Positions 17,525-25,735 of a stretch of DNA of 64,000 nt are shown here, piece after piece; positions within the stretch are counted from its first letter, which is position 1, and every line of letters begins with the position of its first letter. The notes beneath the pieces were generated by a model that had not been told where the DNA came from, did not search any database, and saw nothing but the letters and a program-made list of their open reading frames with translations. The position numbers were made by a program, and so were the translations under genes. The stretch lies in contig NZ_SAUN01000001.1 in NCBI RefSeq assembly GCF_004011505.1, positions 7,219,501-7,283,500 on the forward strand, read 5' to 3'. Origin of the DNA: Nonomuraea polychroma (GTDB lineage: Bacteria > Actinomycetota > Actinomycetes > Streptosporangiales > Streptosporangiaceae).

Positions 17525-18163
17525 ATGCTCTCCACCACTCCTCGCACCATGCTGGGCCGCTCCAAGGAGCGCGGCAGCACCGACAGGAACGACCTGTACG
17601 AGATCCTCGACACCGGCCTGATCTGCCACCTGGGCGTCGTCGTGAACGGCCACCCGATGGTCGTGCCCACAGGCTACGGCCGTGTCGGCGAGACCCTCTA
17701 CCTGCACGGCTCCACGGGCGCCACGACGCTGCGCGCGGCCGGCGACGGCGAGGTGTGCGTCACGGTCACGCATCTGGACGGCATCGTGCTGGCGCGCTCG
17801 GTCTTCCACCACTCCGTCAACTACCGCTCGGCGGTCATCTACGGCCGGCCCAGGCTGGTGACGGACCCGGAGGAGCGGCTGACCGGGCTGCGGGCGCTGA
17901 CCGAGCAGCTCGCGCCGGGCCAGTGGGACTACGCCAGGCCGCCGTCGCGCAAGGAGCTGGCCGCCACGGCCGTGCTGGCGCTGTCCCTGGAGGAGGCGTC
18001 GGTCAAGATCCGGCGTGGCGCGCCGGTCGACGAGGAGGAGGACCACGCCCTTCCGGTATGGGCCGGCGTGCTGCCGCTGGTCACGTCGTGGGGCGAGCCC
18101 GAGCCAGATCCGTTGCTCCCAGAAGGTATCGATGCTCCTGTTCACATCCTCCATCGGGAGTAG
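17525..18163 (+). CDS. PNPOx-like flavin-binding protein
   Basis: A 212-residue split-barrel protein of the Pyridox_ox_2/NimA-like group. GSTDRNDLYEILDTGLICHL near residue 18 and HPMVVPTGYGRVGETLYLHG near residue 47 are the FMN-barrel strands, followed by VCVTVTHLDGIVLARSVFHH and YRSAVIYGRPRLV. Members bind FMN or PLP-like ligands and act as reductases or oxidases in the cytoplasm. It is divergent from a MocR regulator that should control it in response to a B6-type ligand. The ATG has a TACGGT box 6 nt upstream and no ribosome site, so the mRNA is probably leaderless. Confidence 0.84.
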   Translation: MLSTTPRTMLGRSKERGSTDRNDLYEILDTGLICHLGVVVNGHPMVVPTGYGRVGETLYLHGSTGATTLRAAGDGEVCVTVTHLDGIVLARSVFHHSVNYRSAVIYGRPRLVTDPEERLTGLRALTEQLAPGQWDYARPPSRKELAATAVLALSLEEASVKIRRGAPVDEEEDHALPVWAGVLPLVTSWGEPEPDPLLPEGIDAPVHILHRE

Positions 18164-18248: not shown

Positions 18249-20573
18249 ATGGAGTGGAGCGCTCCCGGATACACGGAAGTCAGACAACTCGGCACGGGCG
18301 CCAGCGGGCGGGTCGTGCTGGCCGTGCACGACGAGACCGGCGTCAAGGTCGCGATCAAGTATCTGGCCGCGGACCTGCTGGGCGATCCTGCCGCGCTGGC
18401 CAGGTTCCAGTCGGAGGCGCGGCTGCTGACCACGCTCCGCGACCCCCACATCGCCACGATGTGGGAGTACATCCAGGACGCCGGCGGGGCCTGCATCGTG
18501 ATGGAGCTGGTCAACGGGGTCTCGTTGCGGGCGTTGCTGCGCGAGCACGGCGCGACCGAGCCCGAGGCGGCGCTGGTCGTGCTGAAGGGCTCGCTGCTCG
18601 GCCTGGCCAGGGCGCACACGCTGGGGCTCGTGCACCGGGACTACAAGCCCGAGAACGTCATCGTCAGGGACGACGGGATCAGCAAGCTCGTCGACTTCGG
18701 CATCGCCGTGCGGCGGGGCACGGTCGCCCGCCCGGAGGGCACGCCGCCGTACATGGCGCCCGAGCTGTGGGAGGGGCGGCCGGCCTCGCCCTCGACCGAC
18801 GTGTACGCGGCCACCGCGGTCTTCTTCGAATGCCTGACCGGGCATCGGCCGTACCGCTCGACCGAGCCGAGCGTGCTCGGCTACCAGCACGTCCACGCCC
18901 CTGTACCGTTCCACGACACGCCCGAGCCGGTGCACAGGCTGATCAGGCGCGGTCTGGCCAAGGATCCGGGGCAGCGGCCGGAGAGCGCGCTGGACTTCGT
19001 GGCCGAGCTGGATGCGGTGGCCAGGGCGGCGTACGGCGAGGACTGGGAGGAGCGGGGCAAACGGCGGCTGGCCGCGCTGGTGGCCCTGCTCGCCCTGCTG
19101 CTGCCCACACCGCCGCCGGCGGCGACGCCGGAGGTGTCCACGTCGCTGGCGAGGACGGTCTTCCGCGGGCTGCGCTCGAACGCGAGCTCTGTCGCGCGGG
19201 TGGCGATAGGCGGTGCGCTGGCGGCCGCCGTGGCGGTGGCGGTCGTGGTCGTGGTGGCCAACAGGGAGCCCACGCCCGCGGGCCCGATCGGCGCGGCGGC
19301 GGCCGTGCCGCCGACCGAGCTCACCCCCGAGCCGGCCTCGGCCCCTCCGACGACACCGGAGCCGACGCCGGAGGAGACGCCTGAGAGCAGCCCGGAGAGC
19401 ACGCCCGGGACCGACTCCGAGAACACACCGGCGGCGGTCCTGCCCGAGGAGAGCCCGAGTGTGTCGCCTCCGGCGTCCACCAGACCCGCGACCACGCCCA
19501 CGCGGACCCGGACGCCCACCCCGACCCCGACCCCGACCACCACACCCACCTCGATTCCGACCGCGACGGCCACCCTGACCCCGACGCCGACGGTGATCAC
19601 GCCGTCGCCGGCCACGTCGGTGCTCGCGATCGGCCTCGGTGACCTCATCGTCACCGAGAACGGGGTCGCCACCACGATCAACGTGCGTGCCAGCGGCACG
19701 GCGGCCGTCACCGCCACCGCGACCTGGGCGGCCTCCGGCACGGACGGCCGCACCGAGCGCGTGCGCCTGGCCGGTTCCACGACCTACACGCGCACGCTCA
19801 CCTGGTCCATGGGAGGGCGCCCGTGCGGCAAGACGATCACGCTGACCGTCAGCACCTCCCCCGCGGCCCCCGGCGGCGACAGGACAGCCTCGGTGACCGT
19901 GCCGCCCTGTCCCACGAGGGTGACCGGGTTGCGTGTCGGCCTCGTCATCCCCGCCGCGCCCTCCCGCGTCGCCCAGGCCAGGATCAGGGTCACGGCGAGC
20001 GGCACCGCCGAGATCCCGGTCCAGGCCGAGTTCGCGCTGAACGGCGACCCGATCGGCACCCGCACGGCGAACCTGTCCGGCCAGACCTCCTACTCCCGCA
20101 CGCTCACCCACACCTTCAGGTCCCGCCCCTGCGGCGCGACGTTGTCGGTGAAGGTGACCGCGGGCGGCCGGACGGCCACCGCGCAGACCTCGGTCCCGTG
20201 CCCACCGAAACCCGCAGAGGTGCGGCGGGTGTCGATCCTGCGGGCCGGTCCCGGCGACGGCCTCACGGCCACCGTCCAGGTGCTCACCTCGAACACCCAG
20301 CCGGTACGCCTCACCGTGGCGTTCTCGGCGGGCGAACTCGGCGACACGAGATCGGAGACGCTGTCCGGCGAGACGTCCTACACCAGGACCTTCACGCTCC
20401 CGGTCAAAGAGCTCCCCTGCGGGACGAAGTGGTCCGTGACGGCCTCGACGGACCCGGCGGCGGCCAACGGCAGCGACACGGCCTCCGGCGTCACGCCCGA
20501 GTGCCCGTCCGAGGATGGGCCCACCAAGGAGCCGCGGCCCGAGACGTCCGACACTCCCGGCAAGGTTGACTAG
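18249..20573 (+). CDS. Membrane Ser/Thr protein kinase with three outer repeat domains
   Basis: The 774-residue protein has a complete Hanks-type kinase domain (residues 1-270): glycine loop LGTGASGRV, Lys37 in VAIK, Glu56, catalytic HRDYKPEN (Asp131), DFG Asp149 and GTPPYMAPE. One membrane helix follows at about 317-338 (VARVAIGGALAAAVAVAVVV). Outside is a Pro/Thr/Glu-rich spacer (about 345-455) and then three tandem domains of about 95 residues (roughly 457-555, 557-655, 657-755). Each has ASGTA-like and TxYxRTLT strands and a Cys pair in the form RPCG...PC, suggesting an Ig-like sandwich closed by a disulfide. It should sense something in the wall or outside and phosphorylate cytoplasmic targets. 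It heads a kinase array with the next three genes. Confidence 0.9.
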   Translation: MEWSAPGYTEVRQLGTGASGRVVLAVHDETGVKVAIKYLAADLLGDPAALARFQSEARLLTTLRDPHIATMWEYIQDAGGACIVMELVNGVSLRALLREHGATEPEAALVVLKGSLLGLARAHTLGLVHRDYKPENVIVRDDGISKLVDFGIAVRRGTVARPEGTPPYMAPELWEGRPASPSTDVYAATAVFFECLTGHRPYRSTEPSVLGYQHVHAPVPFHDTPEPVHRLIRRGLAKDPGQRPESALDFVAELDAVARAAYGEDWEERGKRRLAALVALLALLLPTPPPAATPEVSTSLARTVFRGLRSNASSVARVAIGGALAAAVAVAVVVVVANREPTPAGPIGAAAAVPPTELTPEPASAPPTTPEPTPEETPESSPESTPGTDSENTPAAVLPEESPSVSPPASTRPATTPTRTRTPTPTPTPTTTPTSIPTATATLTPTPTVITPSPATSVLAIGLGDLIVTENGVATTINVRASGTAAVTATATWAASGTDGRTERVRLAGSTTYTRTLTWSMGGRPCGKTITLTVSTSPAAPGGDRTASVTVPPCPTRVTGLRVGLVIPAAPSRVAQARIRVTASGTAEIPVQAEFALNGDPIGTRTANLSGQTSYSRTLTHTFRSRPCGATLSVKVTAGGRTATAQTSVPCPPKPAEVRRVSILRAGPGDGLTATVQVLTSNTQPVRLTVAFSAGELGDTRSETLSGETSYTRTFTLPVKELPCGTKWSVTASTDPAAANGSDTASGVTPECPSEDGPTKEPRPETSDTPGKVD

Positions 20574-20685
20574 GAGTCGTAATCCAGACTTTTCAGGATA
20601 TTGGTAGCGGGAAAGCGGTTCCTTCTGGTTAAGCTACGCCCGGTTGGTGCGGGTGGGGGCCCAGACAAGTCCAGAGGAGGCCGTT

Positions 20686-22317
20686 ATGTACGGCGAAGGG
20701 CAATGGGGGGTCCCCGGCTATACCGGGGTTCGCGAACTGGGCTCGGGAGCCGCCGGTCGAGTCGTGCTGGCCAGGCGCGACTACGACGGTGTAGAGGTTG
20801 CCATCAAGTTTCTCAGCGACGAGCTGAGATCCGACATGGGCTTCGTCGCCCGCTTCCGTCACGAGGCGAGGCTGCTGGCCACGTTGCAGAGCGCGCACCA
20901 CGCCCGCCTGATCGACTACGTCGAGTCCGGCCAGGGCGCGGCGATCATCATGGAGCTGATCAACGGGGTCTCGCTCCGCGAGCTCCTCAGGTCCGAGGGC
21001 CCCACGGGGCCTGAGGCCGCGCTGACGGTGCTCAAGGGCTCGCTCCAGGGCCTGGCCTCGGCGCACGCCATCGGCGTCGTCCACCGCGACTTCAAGCCCG
21101 AGAACGTCATGGTGCAGGGCGACGGCACCAGCAAGCTCGTGGACTTCGGCATCGCGGTCCGGGCGGGCGAGGAGGCCAGCGCGGCGGGCACCCCGCCGTA
21201 CATGGCGCCCGAGCAGTGGACGGGCACGCCCGCCGGACCCACGACCGACGTGTACGCGGCCACCGTGGTGTTCTTCGAGTGTCTGACCGGCACCCGCCCC
21301 TACCGAGCAACGAACCTGGTCGCGCTGGCCCATCAGCACCAGAGCGCCCCTCCCCCGACCGAGGAGGTGCCCGCGGCGCTGCGCGGCCTGGTCGAGCGCG
21401 GCCTGGCCAAGGATCCCGCCGAGCGCCCGCCCTCGGCGGAGGCGTTCCTGACCGAGCTGGAGGCCGTCGCGGCCGAGGGGTACGGCCCGGACTGGGAGGA
21501 ACGCGGGCGGCGCCGCCTGGCCGCCCTCGCCGGCCTGCTGGTCCTGCTCTTCCCCAGCCCGCTCGAGGACCCCCCGGAGACTCAGACCTCGCTCGCCGAG
21601 ACACGCTTTCGCGACCCGTCCGGCGTGCTGGGCAGGCTTCCCGCGAAGATCGGCATCGGCGCGGTCGCGGCCGGCGTGCTGATCGGCGCCATTGTGATCA
21701 TCAGCACGTCCTCCGCCGACGAGCCGGTGCTCCAGGCGCAGACCACCAGGACCACGCCGAGCGCCGCGTCGCCGTACACAGGCGAACCGGCCGAGACCGA
21801 AGAGGCGTCGCCCACGCCGGAGGAGACCACACCCGAGCCGACGGCCACGACGAGCGACACTCCGGCGCCCGCCCCGACGACGAGCGCCGCCGCCGCCCCC
21901 ACCACGACGGCCACCGCCACACCCACGCCGGTCAGGACCAAGACCAAGAAGCCCACCAAGACCAAGAAGCCGGCCCCCACCCCGACCGAGACGGCCGGGC
22001 CCGAGGTGAGCGGCACGGCGACTGTGCCGGACGGCACCCGCCCGCCGGCCTCCGCCACACCCACTCCGACGCAGACACAGCCCACCATCCGGCCGACCCC
22101 GTCCACGCAATCGCCGACATCGTCGGATACCGCGTCGCCCACGGGCACGAACACGGACGGCCCAGGAGACGAGGTGCCGACCGAAGTGCCCAGGATCGAG
22201 GCCGTCGGCGTGGCGCAGTCCGCGTTCGTCGCGTTCGGCCTGATGACGTCCGGCGCGGTTCCGGTCACACTTGCGGTGGGACGCCGTGTGGCGGGACGCC
22301 AGAGAAGGAAGCGCTAG
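20686..22317 (+). CDS. Membrane Ser/Thr protein kinase
   Basis: This 543-residue kinase is a near paralogue of the one upstream: PGYTGVRELGSGAAGRVVLA mirrors PGYTEVRQLGTGASGRVVLA, with Lys41 in VAIK, HRDFKPENVM, KLVDFGIAV and GTPPYMAPEQW. A membrane helix at about 323-342 (IGIGAVAAGVLIGAIVII) is followed by a long Thr/Pro/Ala spacer with KKPTKTKKP and, unlike its neighbour, no Cys-paired domain. The last 30 residues are again hydrophobic (VAFGLMTSGAVPVTLAVG) and end RRVAGRQRRKR, like a second helix with an inner basic tail. The ATG at 20686 has AGAGGAGG upstream; an earlier GTG at 20644 has none. The pseudokinase gene starts 21 bp downstream. Confidence 0.9.
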   Translation: MYGEGQWGVPGYTGVRELGSGAAGRVVLARRDYDGVEVAIKFLSDELRSDMGFVARFRHEARLLATLQSAHHARLIDYVESGQGAAIIMELINGVSLRELLRSEGPTGPEAALTVLKGSLQGLASAHAIGVVHRDFKPENVMVQGDGTSKLVDFGIAVRAGEEASAAGTPPYMAPEQWTGTPAGPTTDVYAATVVFFECLTGTRPYRATNLVALAHQHQSAPPPTEEVPAALRGLVERGLAKDPAERPPSAEAFLTELEAVAAEGYGPDWEERGRRRLAALAGLLVLLFPSPLEDPPETQTSLAETRFRDPSGVLGRLPAKIGIGAVAAGVLIGAIVIISTSSADEPVLQAQTTRTTPSAASPYTGEPAETEEASPTPEETTPEPTATTSDTPAPAPTTSAAAAPTTTATATPTPVRTKTKKPTKTKKPAPTPTETAGPEVSGTATVPDGTRPPASATPTPTQTQPTIRPTPSTQSPTSSDTASPTGTNTDGPGDEVPTEVPRIEAVGVAQSAFVAFGLMTSGAVPVTLAVGRRVAGRQRRKR

Positions 22318-22338
22318 CAGCGCCGGGGGGCGACGGCG

Positions 22339-23760
22339 ATGAACAACCCTACGAACGATATCGCTGGATTCCGGCTCACCGAGCACACCTGGATGACCGA
22401 ACTGGGCAACTGGATCGACGCGATCTCGCCCGACGGTCGCAGGGCCGGGGCCTTGCTCTTCGATCCGAGGATCATCGGCCTGCCCGGCGTACGCGACCGC
22501 GTGGTCCAGGCGGTCATGACCGACCAGCGACTGGTGCTGGGCGGGATGACCGGCCTGATCCCGGTGGCGGACGTGGTGGCGGCAGGCGACCAGGTGTGGT
22601 TGCTGACGGCACAAGCGGTCAGCCCGACCGTGGGCGACCTCCTCGCCGGCGGTCCCATCGACCCGGCGGGCGCGGTGTCCGTCCTGGTGGAGACCGCCCA
22701 GACGCTGATCGCGCTGCACACGGCGGGAGTCACGCACGGCTCCGTGCACCCGGGCACCGTGGTGATCACCGCGGAGGGCGCCGCGTTGTTGTCCGAGCGC
22801 GGCCTGTCCGACGCGATCCGCGGCCAGGTGTCCCCGCCCGAGCGGGACGTGGCCGGCTGGGCGGCCCTCGCCCGCGGGCTGGCCGCCTCCTCGAGCTCCG
22901 TCGGGCCGGGCACGCCACACGTCGGCGCCGGCTCGCCGCAGGTCGGCCCTTCCCCGCCGGCCGCGGCGCAGGTCGCTCAGCTGTTAGAACGTGTCGCGGC
23001 CATGGCCGGCACACTCGGCCTGGCGGCCGCGCGCAGCACGCTGATCAGCGAGCAGTCGGCGCTGCCCGGCGGCGCGATCAGCCGGGAAGGGCTGGCGCAG
23101 GCGGCACGCGGCAGGTCGGTGTTCGCGCAGCCGCGGACGTACGCGCAGCCGCCCGCCCCGCCCAGGGACGAAGGCGACATCGTCACGCTGCTGCACGTGC
23201 CCAAGGGGGCGTCGGCGGCACGGCCGCTGCAGTTCGGGCCGGGGATCGGCACGCAGGAGCAGCGGCCGGAGACGACGGCGGAGCGGATCTGGCGGGCAGG
23301 ACGGGACGAGGCGCGCACCGTGCACCGCCCGGACGGCAAGCGGCCCAGGGCCTCGCGGGCACGCCGGTGGCGGACGATCTGGGCCACGGCCGTTTTCGCC
23401 GTGATCATGGCCGGGGCGATCCTGGCCTGGTTGAAGGCGGGCAGCGCGCCGGAGCTGGCGGTCCAGTCGATCGACGTGGTGGCGCCGAAGAAGACGCAAG
23501 GCTGCGACAGCAAGGTCCTGATCACAGGAAAGGTCGTCACCAACGGGGCGCCCGGCGAGATCACCTTCGAATGGCGCAAGAACCTGGACAAGACAGTCGT
23601 CAAGGGAACATTGCGTACGAGGTCCGACGAGACGTCCTACGAGCTGCCGCTGAGGTGGTCGCTGTCGGGCAAGAGCAACGTCAAGGCCACCGCCACGCTG
23701 CGGATCCTGACGCCGGGCCCGGTGCGTACGGACAAGGCCACCTTCACCTACAAGTGTTGA
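22339..23760 (+). CDS. Membrane pseudokinase with outer Ig-like domain
   Basis: The 473-residue protein retains a kinase-like layout but has lost the chemistry. LIALHTAGVTHGSVHPGTVVI (split by me at residues 124-144) aligns with the catalytic loop, where Asp and Asn of HRDxKPEN are replaced by Ser and Thr, and ALLSERGLSD stands where DFG should be. No glycine loop or VAIK Lys is seen at the N-terminus. After a Pro/Ala-rich stretch and a basic patch (RPRASRARRWR) there is one helix (about 348-370, TIWATAVFAVIMAGAILAWL). A single outer domain follows with Cys residues at each end (QGCDSKV and the last residue) and TSYELPLRWSL, resembling the repeats of the first kinase. It probably acts as a scaffold or regulator for the kinases. 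Mycobacterial MviN/MurJ has an analogous pseudokinase, but in a different architecture. Confidence 0.72.
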   Translation: MNNPTNDIAGFRLTEHTWMTELGNWIDAISPDGRRAGALLFDPRIIGLPGVRDRVVQAVMTDQRLVLGGMTGLIPVADVVAAGDQVWLLTAQAVSPTVGDLLAGGPIDPAGAVSVLVETAQTLIALHTAGVTHGSVHPGTVVITAEGAALLSERGLSDAIRGQVSPPERDVAGWAALARGLAASSSSVGPGTPHVGAGSPQVGPSPPAAAQVAQLLERVAAMAGTLGLAAARSTLISEQSALPGGAISREGLAQAARGRSVFAQPRTYAQPPAPPRDEGDIVTLLHVPKGASAARPLQFGPGIGTQEQRPETTAERIWRAGRDEARTVHRPDGKRPRASRARRWRTIWATAVFAVIMAGAILAWLKAGSAPELAVQSIDVVAPKKTQGCDSKVLITGKVVTNGAPGEITFEWRKNLDKTVVKGTLRTRSDETSYELPLRWSLSGKSNVKATATLRILTPGPVRTDKATFTYKC

Positions 23761-23796
23761 TGCCTTCGCAGCAATGCATATCAAGGGAGTTCTTAC

Positions 23797-23802
23797 TAAT
23801 CT
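23797..23802 (+). promoter_or_regulatory. -10 box of a leaderless promoter
   Basis: TAATCT lies 7 nt before the ATG at 23810; there is no ribosome site at that distance. AAGGGAG at about 23784 is too far (about 20 nt) to serve this start. The gene may therefore be transcribed separately from the kinases. Confidence 0.35.
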
Positions 23803-23809
23803 GGCGAAC

Positions 23810-24886
23810 ATGACCTCGCAGACCCCCGCGGGCTGGTATCCGGACCCGTACGGCGAGCCCAAGTTGCGCTGGTGGGACGGCAACCAGTGGACCGACGCCA
23901 CACATGCGCAGGAGCCGGCGCAACAGCCCGCCTCCGGGCCGCAGCACCCCCAGCCGCAGGCCGCCTCCGGACCGCAGCAGCAGTCACGGCCGGACTGGTC
24001 GGCGACGCCGGCGAACCCCACGCTCCAGTACGGACAGCCCACCTTCGGGCAATCCGCCTACGGGCAGCCCACGCCGCCCGCCCAGCAGTGGAGCGGCGCG
24101 CAGCTGCCCGGCCCCGGCTACGGCCCGCCGCCCAAGCAGAGCAATCCGCTGCCCTGGGTGTTCGGCGGGCTGGCGGCGCTGGTGGTGGTCGCGCTCATCG
24201 TGGTAGCGGGGATCTTCTTCGTCAACAGGAGCAGCCCCGAGGTCGCGCTGCCGTCGCCGACGGAGCAGTCGGAGTCCCAGGAGCCGCCCGGCAATGAACC
24301 GCCGTCCAACGAGCCGCCCAGCCAGGGCACCGGCGAGCCGCCGCCCCAGCCGGTCGACGGCCGGATCACCGACTCGCGGGCCGGGATCTCGTACCCGGTG
24401 CCGCAGGGCTGGACGGTGCCCGCGCAGCTCAATCCCGCGACCCCGAGCCCGACGCAGCAGCTGTGGTCGGCCGGGGTGCAGGCCGTCTCGCAGGAGGACT
24501 TCGTCGAGGACGACGACTGGATCGGCAACGTCTACTCGGGGCTGCTCAACGAGCTCTACCCCTATAGCGGCGCCGCCGGCATGGGAGACACGGCGAAGGC
24601 CGTCTTCGTGGACTTCGCCAGGTTCTACTCGCCGCCGCACGAGAGCAAGATCGTGGCGGACAAGGCCATGAAGATCGGCGATCGCGACGCGTGGCTGCTG
24701 CAGTTCGAGCTCGACTTCACCAAGGTGTCGGAGGAGAAGGGCTACAAGTGGAAGAAGGAGAACGGGGCGATCGTGCTCATGGATCGCGGCTCCGGTGAGC
24801 GCCCTGCCCTCCTCTACATCTCCGTACCGGACAATCTGGGCACCGATGTGGTGAGCAAGGTTTTGAGCTCGCTCAAGCCCGCGTGA
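23810..24886 (+). CDS. DUF2510 membrane protein
   Basis: A 358-residue protein starting MTSQTPAGWYPDP. The N-terminal DUF2510 domain is clear from WYPDPYG and RWWDGNQWT (residues 9-28). A Gln/Pro/Gly-rich cytoplasmic spacer runs to about 110, a helix follows (LPWVFGGLAALVVVALIVVAG, about 115-138), then a Pro/Glu-rich spacer and an outer alpha/beta domain (about 185-358) of the kind found in actinobacterial lipoproteins and membrane proteins. DUF2510 is a small cytoplasmic module of unknown function. Its layout (cytoplasmic module, single helix, disordered spacer, outer domain) parallels the three kinase-type genes just upstream, so it may be a partner or substrate. An ATG at 23774 is possible but adds 12 unconserved residues. 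Confidence 0.8.
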   Translation: MTSQTPAGWYPDPYGEPKLRWWDGNQWTDATHAQEPAQQPASGPQHPQPQAASGPQQQSRPDWSATPANPTLQYGQPTFGQSAYGQPTPPAQQWSGAQLPGPGYGPPPKQSNPLPWVFGGLAALVVVALIVVAGIFFVNRSSPEVALPSPTEQSESQEPPGNEPPSNEPPSQGTGEPPPQPVDGRITDSRAGISYPVPQGWTVPAQLNPATPSPTQQLWSAGVQAVSQEDFVEDDDWIGNVYSGLLNELYPYSGAAGMGDTAKAVFVDFARFYSPPHESKIVADKAMKIGDRDAWLLQFELDFTKVSEEKGYKWKKENGAIVLMDRGSGERPALLYISVPDNLGTDVVSKVLSSLKPA

Positions 24887-24954
24887 GCAGTGGCACTAGT
24901 CTGGTGGGGTAACAAGCGGGCGGATTGCTCCGAGCCGCTGGGCGAGGAGATCTC

Positions 24955-25548
24955 ATGAGTGACTTGCTGGTCTGGATCGACTGCGAGATGACCGGGCTCG
25001 ACCTCGGGCGTGACGCGCTGGTGGAGGTGGCGTGCGTCATCACCGACAGCGAGCTCAATCAGCTCGACGAGGGCGTGGACGTGGTCATCAAACCGCCGCC
25101 CGAGTCGCTGGAGCAGATGTCGGAAGTGGTGCGCGAGATGCACACCGCCTCCGGGCTGCTGCCCGCGCTGGGGAGCGGGGTGACGTTGTCGGAGGCGGAG
25201 TCGCTCGTGCTCGACTACATCCGCCGCCATGTGCCGGAGCCGAAGAAGGCGCCGCTGTGCGGCAACTCGATCGGCACCGACCGCACGTTCCTCGCCAGGG
25301 ACATGCCGGCGGTGGACGCCTATCTGCACTATCGGATGATCGACGTTTCGTCGATCAAGGAGCTGGTCCGCCGCTGGTACCCACGGGTCTACTTCGCCGC
25401 GCCCGAGAAGCAGGGCGGGCACCGCGCGCTGGCCGACATCACGGAGAGCATCAGGGAGCTGCGTTACTACCGTGCGGCGATCTTCGTGGACCAGCCGGGA
25501 CCCGACTCGGCGACCGCGAGATCGCTGGCAGAGCATGTCAGCGGCTAA
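24955..25548 (+). CDS. orn: Oligoribonuclease
   Basis: The 197-residue protein is a DEDDh 3'-5' exonuclease. Asp and Glu are in [12 protein letters not shown] at the start, the second Asp region in [12 protein letters not shown] near residue 112, and His/Asp in GGHRALADI near residue 158. Orn degrades di- to penta-ribonucleotides, including pGpG from c-di-GMP turnover, in the cytoplasm. Length is normal. GAGGAG precedes the ATG. The tRNA-His gene follows 68 bp later, an order common in actinomycetes. Confidence 0.97.
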
Positions 25549-25616: not shown

Positions 25617-25692
25617 GTGGGTGTAGCTCAGTTGGCAGAGCGCCAGGTTGTGGTCCTGGATGTCGAGGGTTCAAGTCCCTTCACTCACCCCA
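25617..25692 (+). tRNA. tRNA-His (anticodon GUG)
   Basis: The acceptor stem GTGGGTG (25617-25623) pairs with CACTCAC (25682-25688) with one G-T pair. C73 is followed by an encoded CCA (25690-25692). The D arm is GCTCAGTTGGCAGAGC, the anticodon arm CCAGGTTGTGGTCCTGG has GTG centred in the loop, and the T arm contains GGTTCAAGTCC. G at 25616 provides the G-1 that marks tRNA-His. TACACT at 25579-25584 may be its -10 box. Confidence 0.97.
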
Positions 25693-25696
25693 GAGC

Positions 25697-25735
25697 ACGA
25701 CGGCCGGTCCGAAGAGGACCGGCCGTCGTCGTTTT
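25697..25735 (+). terminator. Rho-independent terminator of tRNA-His
   Basis: A perfect 14-bp stem (ACGACGGCCGGTCC, 25697-25710, with GGACCGGCCGTCGT, 25716-25729) around the loop GAAGA is followed by CGTTTTC. It begins four bases after the CCA end. Confidence 0.9.

Follow-up and report, generated by a model that had tools for sequence, protein, structure and literature searches.

A transmembrane pseudokinase with a probable dedicated receptor kinase and an exchangeable head in Nonomuraea polychroma

Several families of bacterial pseudokinases have been named, ActPs1-3, GLW, CP1, DYD and DLHK, and they are largely unexplored experimentally, according to the accessible part of a 2025 review (PMC12599244), from which the following descriptions are also taken within the same bounds. 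The MviN/MurJ pseudokinase of M. tuberculosis (ActPs3) is actinobacterial and membrane-linked, has lost the catalytic motifs, has a shortened activation segment and is found near a kinase signalling route. EssB/YukC is a membrane pseudokinase with degraded motifs and a scaffold role, and several members of ActPs1, ActPs2 and GLW have a transmembrane segment C-terminal to the pseudokinase head. The current analysis concerns a single-pass transmembrane pseudokinase, designated PK, that shares general traits of ActPs3 and is encoded directly behind a live receptor Ser/Thr kinase, designated K2, in a 64,000-nucleotide stretch of the Nonomuraea polychroma genome (contig NZ_SAUN01000001.1, positions 7,219,501 to 7,283,500, forward strand). 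This whole stretch is referred to as the window; coordinates are positions in it, and PK residue numbers are those of the window copy (473 residues).

A sequence-only reading of the window had described four consecutive genes on the same strand, and this layout was borne out, with open reading frames at 18249-20573 (K1), 20686-22317 (K2), 22339-23760 (PK) and 23774-24886 (designated D). K2 and PK, which carry the main finding, have the following features.

20686..22317, forward strand: K2, transmembrane Ser/Thr kinase, 543 residues
~21649-21705, forward strand: first transmembrane segment of K2, followed by a low-complexity Pro/Thr stalk
~22222-22278, forward strand: second hydrophobic segment of K2 (residues 513-531) with a basic tail, kept in relatives
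22339..23760, forward strand: PK, single-pass transmembrane pseudokinase, 473 residues
22360..23124, forward strand: PK pseudokinase head, residues 8-262, with HGSVHPGT for HRDxKPEN and SERG for DFG
23173..23193, forward strand: PK linker motif G-D-I-V-T283-L-L, with T283 a candidate phospho-threonine
23233..23301, forward strand: PK juxtamembrane FGPG...ERIWRAG motif, present in most partners, whether the kinase head is dead, live or absent
23377..23433, forward strand: PK transmembrane helix, residues 347-365
23452..23757, forward strand: PK outer beta-sandwich, immunoglobulin-like (Ig-like) domain, with invariant C389 and C473, TNGxxG, W412 and W440

No Pfam match was found in PK. The catalytic triad (Lys, the Asp of HRD and the Asp of DFG) was lost throughout, with no member kept at the aligned positions in 53/53 PKs. 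At the alignment column of the beta3 lysine, Leu was found in 35, Arg in 17 and Gly in one; the catalytic loop read HG[S/A][V/L], followed by His (45), Gln (4), Arg (3) or Asp (1) and then by Pro in 52 of the 53; and DFG was replaced by ERG (E153 in 52/53, R154 in 51/53, G155 in 53/53). The head also had neither a glycine loop nor the beta3 Lys, and its activation segment was short, about 11 residues separating ERG (to residue 155) from helix F (from residue 167). An AlphaFold2 model built on a 51-sequence alignment had a mean predicted local distance difference test score (pLDDT) of 82.8, with 85-98 per ten-residue block over residues 11-190, and consisted of a two-lobed kinase head, a disordered linker, a long membrane helix and an outer beta-sandwich. 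When the model was compared with solved kinases by Foldseek, the best E-value was 3.4e-9 at a probability of 1.00, and M. tuberculosis PknA was matched at 3.0e-8; the PK sequence profile matched PknA and PAK4 at E-values of 4.5e-5 to 5.6e-5. Judged from the aligned sequences and the predicted structure, PK is a true pseudokinase with a protein kinase fold and is predicted to be catalytically dead, as the sequence-only reading had proposed; the lack of a kinase fold in the third protein, named there as a ground for abandoning the idea, was not found in the model.

The ratio of nonsynonymous to synonymous substitution rates (dN/dS) over the PK head core, residues 8-184, was 0.139, 0.138, 0.090 and 0.156 against four Nonomuraea relatives. 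The K2 kinase domain gave 0.148, 0.171, 0.171 and 0.145 against four such relatives, and the K1 kinase domain 0.255, 0.263 and 0.229 against three. The PK head core is constrained as strongly as the live domain of K2. There were 58 invariant columns over 51 PKs, 34 of them in the head.

PK was not assignable to a known pseudokinase family, ActPs1, ActPs2 and GLW being compared by description only. It has the ActPs3 trait of an activation-loop deletion combined with a C-terminal transmembrane region, and assignment to ActPs3 was considered and is not supported: HHalign comparison with the MviN-type domain, a weak test with a single sequence, gave a probability of 0.47% (E-value 0.13), as against 97% for the PK profile and K2. 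The ActPs3 domain is moreover part of MviN, which belongs to peptidoglycan synthesis, whereas PK is a single-pass protein linked to a kinase and carries an Ig-like domain on the outside. As far as the accessible descriptions go, ActPs2 has the change of the beta3 Lys to Arg that is found in 17/53 PKs and differs in having Asn for the HRD Asp and a long activation-loop insert, where PK has HG[S/A], ERG and the Ig-like outer domain; ActPs1 differs in often having a PQQ domain, and GLW in its GLW motif and proteobacterial origin. EssB/YukC is a component of the type VII secretion system in Firmicutes, whereas PK sits beside a receptor kinase. No publication on this four-gene set was found among the matches listed, in a search that covered few subscription papers; what appears new is the combination, in one membrane pseudokinase, of an exchangeable head and a kinase that is probably dedicated to it. 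Separate pseudokinase-like genes were seen near murJ at L189 (4071-5000) and L188 (2054-3640), with HGRLRPSC and HLRLTPDN; they may represent the MviN pseudokinase domain in split form.

The kinase domains of K1 and K2 matched Pfam Pkinase at 2.5e-41 and 3.1e-43 and were 61% identical. Both window copies have complete VAIK, HRDxKPEN and DFG motifs and a transmembrane segment, the features of receptor Ser/Thr kinases, and their description as near paralogues with full catalytic sets holds. The suggestion that the second kinase might have two helices was likewise upheld by hydrophobic residues 513-531 of K2. A strict catalytic pattern was found in 61 of 64 K2 rows across relatives (L073 was left out of this count); L116 and L133 failed the pattern at DFG, and the third failing row was the degraded second kinase of L138. 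No folded ectodomain was detected in K2, and its start is probably the ATG at 20686 by comparison with relatives. Both kinase domains resemble PknB/Stk1-type receptor kinases in matching the PknB_PASTA_kin model (K1 178.5 bits, K2 203.6 bits), but these scores lie far below the curated cut-off of 450 and no PASTA match was found in either protein, so that neither is placed in the PknB/Stk1 equivalog; K1 instead has three Ig-like repeats and K2 a stalk with a second transmembrane segment. K1, K2, an unlinked third kinase elsewhere in the window genome (K3; L190; G000:C1:3219658-3220446; 62% identical to K2) and four sampled kinases of two other families formed one clade with support of 100/100, referred to as the K clade; the tree is without the kinase of L161, which was missed by the pattern. 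A short hydrophobic stretch of the approximate form YGxDWEERGxxxLAxLxxLLxLLxP recurs immediately after the kinase domain in K1, K2, K3 and relatives.

The stem of the PK head in the tree measured 3.94 changes per column and long-branch joining was warned of; because of this, no origin is claimed for the dead head. The live kinases that best matched the PK head profile were of the GGMGxVY/VW type (57.8 bits at L126, 52.1 at L134) while K-clade kinases reached at most 31.1 bits, an uneven comparison because the L126 and L134 loci were collected by matching the PK head.

Linkage was counted over 54 loci found with PK as query, contig-edge loci being left out of each count; in the genus search, 53/54 genomes matched PK at E<=1e-15. 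A kinase lay directly 5' of PK in 48/48 testable loci (six of the 54 were at contig edges), with a gap of 3-34 bp in 42 of the 48. D was directly 3' of PK, and the oligoribonuclease gene orn downstream, in 51/51 testable loci each, and a pyridoxamine-5'-phosphate-oxidase-like gene (PPOX) was upstream in 41/44. K1 was linked in 34/44; the ten loci without it were seven of Herbidospora, two of Streptosporangium and that of N. longispora, and in three further loci K1 was 0.7-2.1 kb distant.

The last 180 residues of PK form a module that consists of the FGPG...IWR segment, a basic patch, the transmembrane segment and the Ig-like domain with its two invariant cysteines. In other genera, this module was carried by the gene directly behind a K-clade kinase, and the head in front of it varied. 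An apparently intact kinase head, its motifs judged by eye, was found at L119, L120, L125 and L137, a dead head like that of PK at L138 and L158, and no head at, for example, L122, L127, L128 and L130-L132 (other genera; two other families). Over all partner types, a K-clade kinase was upstream in 69/78, a tally in which L115 and L117, PK copies cut by contig edges, were counted as having no head; the other nine partners were at contig edges, and for two of these, L120 and L121, a K-clade kinase lay on the opposite side. Kinase and partner genes were adjacent at 8/8 loci in the two other families. A search of 197 genomes of the class found the module at 75 bits or above in 15, of which eight belong to the same family as the window genome. 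A K2-type kinase at E<=1e-75 was present in 16 genomes, namely all of these 15 and G342. A kinase-pseudokinase partnership is likely, because PK, conserved and of predicted kinase fold, is immediately preceded by a kinase of a single clade at every locus whose upstream sequence was covered. Two candidate module carriers, L165 and L166, were dropped (35 and 31 bits in one search, 39 and 32 in another, FGPG motif absent), as were L126, L134, L135 and L136 as partners, these being ordinary kinases to which the head alone gave a match.

The outer part of the kinase varied with the type of partner. The Ig-like domain was absent in 48/50 K2s beside a dead-headed partner, and in 42 of those 48 the stalk ended in a second transmembrane segment and basic tail by a strict pattern. 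Kinases beside a head-less partner carried an Ig-like domain in 10/16, and those beside a live head in 1/3. A split receptor, in which PK would supply the outer domain, fits these counts because the K2s beside dead heads are mostly without an Ig-like domain.

Three loci had unusual pairs. At L158 (6047-9965; G347, another family), a kinase stood beside a dead-headed partner, while L161 of the same genome is a head-less pair; the pair may have been transferred between families. At L138 (7459-14477; G077), two tandem kinase-pseudokinase pairs lay between PPOX and D-orn, and the second kinase looked degraded itself (VVVR, DTG). At L077 (8477-11332; N. longispora), the kinase beside PK was a chimera of K3-type and K2-type parts: its catalytic domain and first transmembrane segment were identical to the window genome's K3 at 215/262 positions and to K2 at 162/262, while the tail with the second transmembrane segment was K2-like (20/36 to K2, 11/36 to K3). 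The 5' sequence of L077 resembles the K3 locus and the 3' sequence the window, and the chimera is either a rearrangement or an assembly join in the low-complexity stalk.

We propose, with a probability of roughly 0.57, that PK is the dedicated non-catalytic co-receptor of K2 and tunes it through the dead head in a putative complex. The shared module would dock the partner on K2 by way of the Ig-like domain on the outer side and of the FGPG-IWR segment on the inner side. K2 of the Nonomuraea group is without a folded ectodomain, so sensing on the outside would fall to PK, whose dead head would contact the K2 kinase domain and hold or trigger K2 without using ATP. T283 in the linker could plausibly be phosphorylated by K2 and might also serve for recruitment. 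K1 would be an optional paralogue, and D and orn a separate neighbouring unit, the cassette sitting between PPOX and these. We infer the physical K2-PK complex, the direction of control, the sensing role and the phosphorylation. The significance of the locus lies in a conserved pseudokinase that has a probable live partner adjoining it and a head core constrained like a live kinase, and the natural series of modules with dead, live or no head would let what a dead kinase does for a live one be tested directly in soil bacteria. A wider proposal, offered tentatively and with the odds leaning against it, is that the FGPG-transmembrane-Ig proteins are a co-receptor family with an exchangeable head (live, dead or none), and that in the Nonomuraea group K2 would catalyse without an outer domain while PK senses and allosterically switches it. 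If true, it would be a bacterial counterpart, by analogy, of HER2/HER3-type receptor pairing, with natural head-swap variants for testing the contribution of the pseudokinase.

Several observations weigh against the co-receptor reading, 1) the loci behind the linkage counts cannot be treated as independent, since the 54 were collected with the PK query, and in the class searches only some of the first-look candidates of each genome were scored, 2) the FGPG anchor string was present in 20/24 diverse partners and missing in L121, L124, L133 and L137, of which L137 is live-headed and L121 is cut by a contig edge, 3) neither K1 nor K3, both K-clade kinases, is followed by its own module gene (none was detected in the 20 kb surrounding K3), so the K clade as such does not need the module, 4) the loss of the Ig-like domain has exceptions at L158 and in one of the two pairs of L138, 6/16 head-less pairs had no detected Ig-like domain either, and the correlation is confounded by ancestry, 5) the end of the PK head, residues 208-262, is loosely constrained (dN/dS 0.48-0.70) and 6) in two mirror-tree runs, the partial correlation of K2 with the PK head was 0.33 and 0.38, as against 0.51 and 0.34 for K2 with D, and the best partner of the PK head was K1 (0.56, the strongest between-protein pair, 30 taxa). 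With 39 taxa, the K2-D value of 0.51 was level with that for the two halves of PK (0.52). The mirror-tree analysis left out the K2 rows of L073 (a short open reading frame) and L077 (the chimera), and also L101, whose K1 is filed as K2. Given the PK head-K1 value, PK may serve K1 as well. Confidence in the co-receptor reading was lowered because the constraint is limited to residues 8-184, FGPG is not universal and the PK head correlates best with K1.

An unlikely alternative is that PK is mainly a substrate of K2 and a phospho-scaffold, the phosphorylated linker threonines recruiting a further protein and the head serving as a docking platform instead of regulating K2. T283 was invariant in the 51 aligned PKs, and the motif [D/E]..T[V/L/R/M][L/I] occurred at most 60 residues before FGPG in 46/50 scored PKs (1.3 in shuffles) and before FGPG in 11/20 scored other partners (1.1 in shuffles), counts that left out the anchor-less L121, L124, L133 and L137 and the PKs L072, L086 and L118. 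Head-less partners retain the linker-membrane part, so that a common function may not need the head, and PknB with the MviN pseudokinase and FhaA provides a precedent in the accessible part of the review (PMC12599244). The motif was, however, chosen by eye from the same sequences on which it was counted, and no part of PK is under stronger constraint than the head core, to a degree that a passive platform would not seem to need. The same source describes pseudokinases with other chemistry, and conserved polar residues (E153, R154, D170, H127 and H133) surround the old active site of PK, by which its head might act in the manner of SelO or SidJ. That is very unlikely, as the beta3 lysine and the glycine loop for ATP are absent and head-less partners stand beside the same kinase clade, so the common function needs no separate enzyme. 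A decaying kinase relic with no present role would account for the loss of all catalytic residues and for the relaxed residues 208-262, but is scarcely credible: dN/dS of 0.09-0.16 over residues 8-184 contradicts it for the core, and the invariant columns fall mostly within a head with a confident kinase fold.

The sequence-only reading had favoured a four-component outside-sensing complex, in which PK bridges K1 and K2 and D is a substrate or partner. The order K1, K2, PK, D, where K1 was linked, and the constant place of D behind PK agree with it, K1, PK and D all have outer domains, and the mirror-tree values for PK head-K1 and K2-D, from one run each, were 0.56 and 0.51. It is nevertheless improbable, since D and K1 proved separable from K2-PK in related genomes. 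D and orn occurred without kinases in ten related genomes, D was 1.1 Mb from the kinase-partner pair in G153, K1 was missing in 10/44 testable loci, and the PK head-D partial correlation was lowest or next to lowest (0.29, 0.17). Unlinked genes in related genomes, which that reading had itself named as evidence against it, were thus found for D and K1 and not for K2-PK. For D as a substrate or partner, the adjacency and the K2-D value of 0.51 in one of the two runs speak in favour, and the mirror-trees favoured no pair in the way that either reading would predict. A four-part complex had been suggested by linkage in a single genus; the wider comparison does not support it and separates the likely pair from its looser neighbours.

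The features of K1 are as follows.

18249..20573, forward strand: K1, transmembrane Ser/Thr kinase, 774 residues, optional member
~18270-18983, forward strand: K1 kinase domain
~19200-19256, forward strand: K1 transmembrane segment
~19614-20507, forward strand: three outer repeats of K1, Ig-like by appearance alone (mutual HHalign probability 98.9-99.4%)

The strict catalytic pattern was found in 25/36 K1 rows across relatives. Ten Nonomuraea loci (L076, L079, L080, L084-L086, L088, L091, L100 and L116) had HKD for HRD in K1, and these copies retain the catalytic Asp, the following KPEN and DFG; K1 of L127 deviates from the DFG pattern. A hydrophobic stretch, residues 274-292 (19068-19124), directly follows the K1 kinase domain. 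Homology of the K1 repeats with the PK outer domain was considered and rejected, HHalign probabilities being only 1.5, 4.2 and 2.5%. The observed score was reached by 0/20 column shuffles for repeats 1 and 2, while for repeat 3 one of 20 was higher and one nearly equal; no claim is made past both looking Ig-like.

The genes on either side of the cassette and D itself were as follows.

17525..18163, forward strand: PPOX, pyridoxamine-5'-phosphate-oxidase-like gene (Pfam PF12900), bounding the PPOX-D-orn block on the left
23774..24886, forward strand: D, DUF2510 membrane protein, 370 residues, member of the PPOX-D-orn block
23828-23926, forward strand: D DUF2510 domain
24167-24223, forward strand: D transmembrane segment
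24359-24883, forward strand: D outer domain of Mog1/PsbP fold
24925..25548, forward strand: orn, oligoribonuclease, bounding the PPOX-D-orn block on the right
25617-25692: tRNA-His, following orn
25697..25729, forward strand: strong terminator-like hairpin after tRNA-His

No terminator-like sites were found between the K1, K2, PK and D genes, and no promoter was found in a search that covered the sigma-70-like type only. In PADLOC, the matches of K1 and K2 were of a general kinase kind, mostly to PD-T4-6 models; PK had two weak matches and D had none, and no defence role is inferred. The identification of the fourth protein as a DUF2510 protein was confirmed by a PF10708 match of 49.5 bits (gathering score 24, E-value 3.5e-13). 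Its predicted outer domain has a Mog1/PsbP fold by Foldseek (PsbP, E-value 3.1e-6), a fold shared with M. tuberculosis Apa, MTC28 (Rv0040c) and LpqN (1.2e-5, 8.2e-4 and 1.1e-2), from which D differs in being a DUF2510 membrane protein with an identity of only 10-15%.

The D outer domain was used to search 24 genomes, of which ten were counted and four had PK loci; the rest were G184 and G240 (a D relative), G321 (a weak match) and seven without a match. In the ten counted genomes, the best D relative (L200-L209) was 27-34% identical and had kinase-free surroundings, and all ten carry a kinase-partner pair elsewhere. In the single-contig genome G153, D was at 7.88 Mb and the pair at 9.02 Mb. 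The gene orn was on the downstream side of the D relative in 10/10, within about 150 bp in nine and at about 0.9 kb in L202. PPOX was directly 5' in 7/10; in L209 it was a short fragment, and only about 0.3 kb of upstream sequence was covered at L208. The D relatives of G184 and G240 were near neither orn nor PPOX within the flanks examined. PPOX-D-orn is thus a block of its own, because the D relative elsewhere adjoins orn, and mostly PPOX, without kinases. The kinase cassette in the window sits between PPOX and D and appears to have been inserted into this block, not excised from it elsewhere. The tie between D and the kinases is one of adjacency within the Nonomuraea group only.

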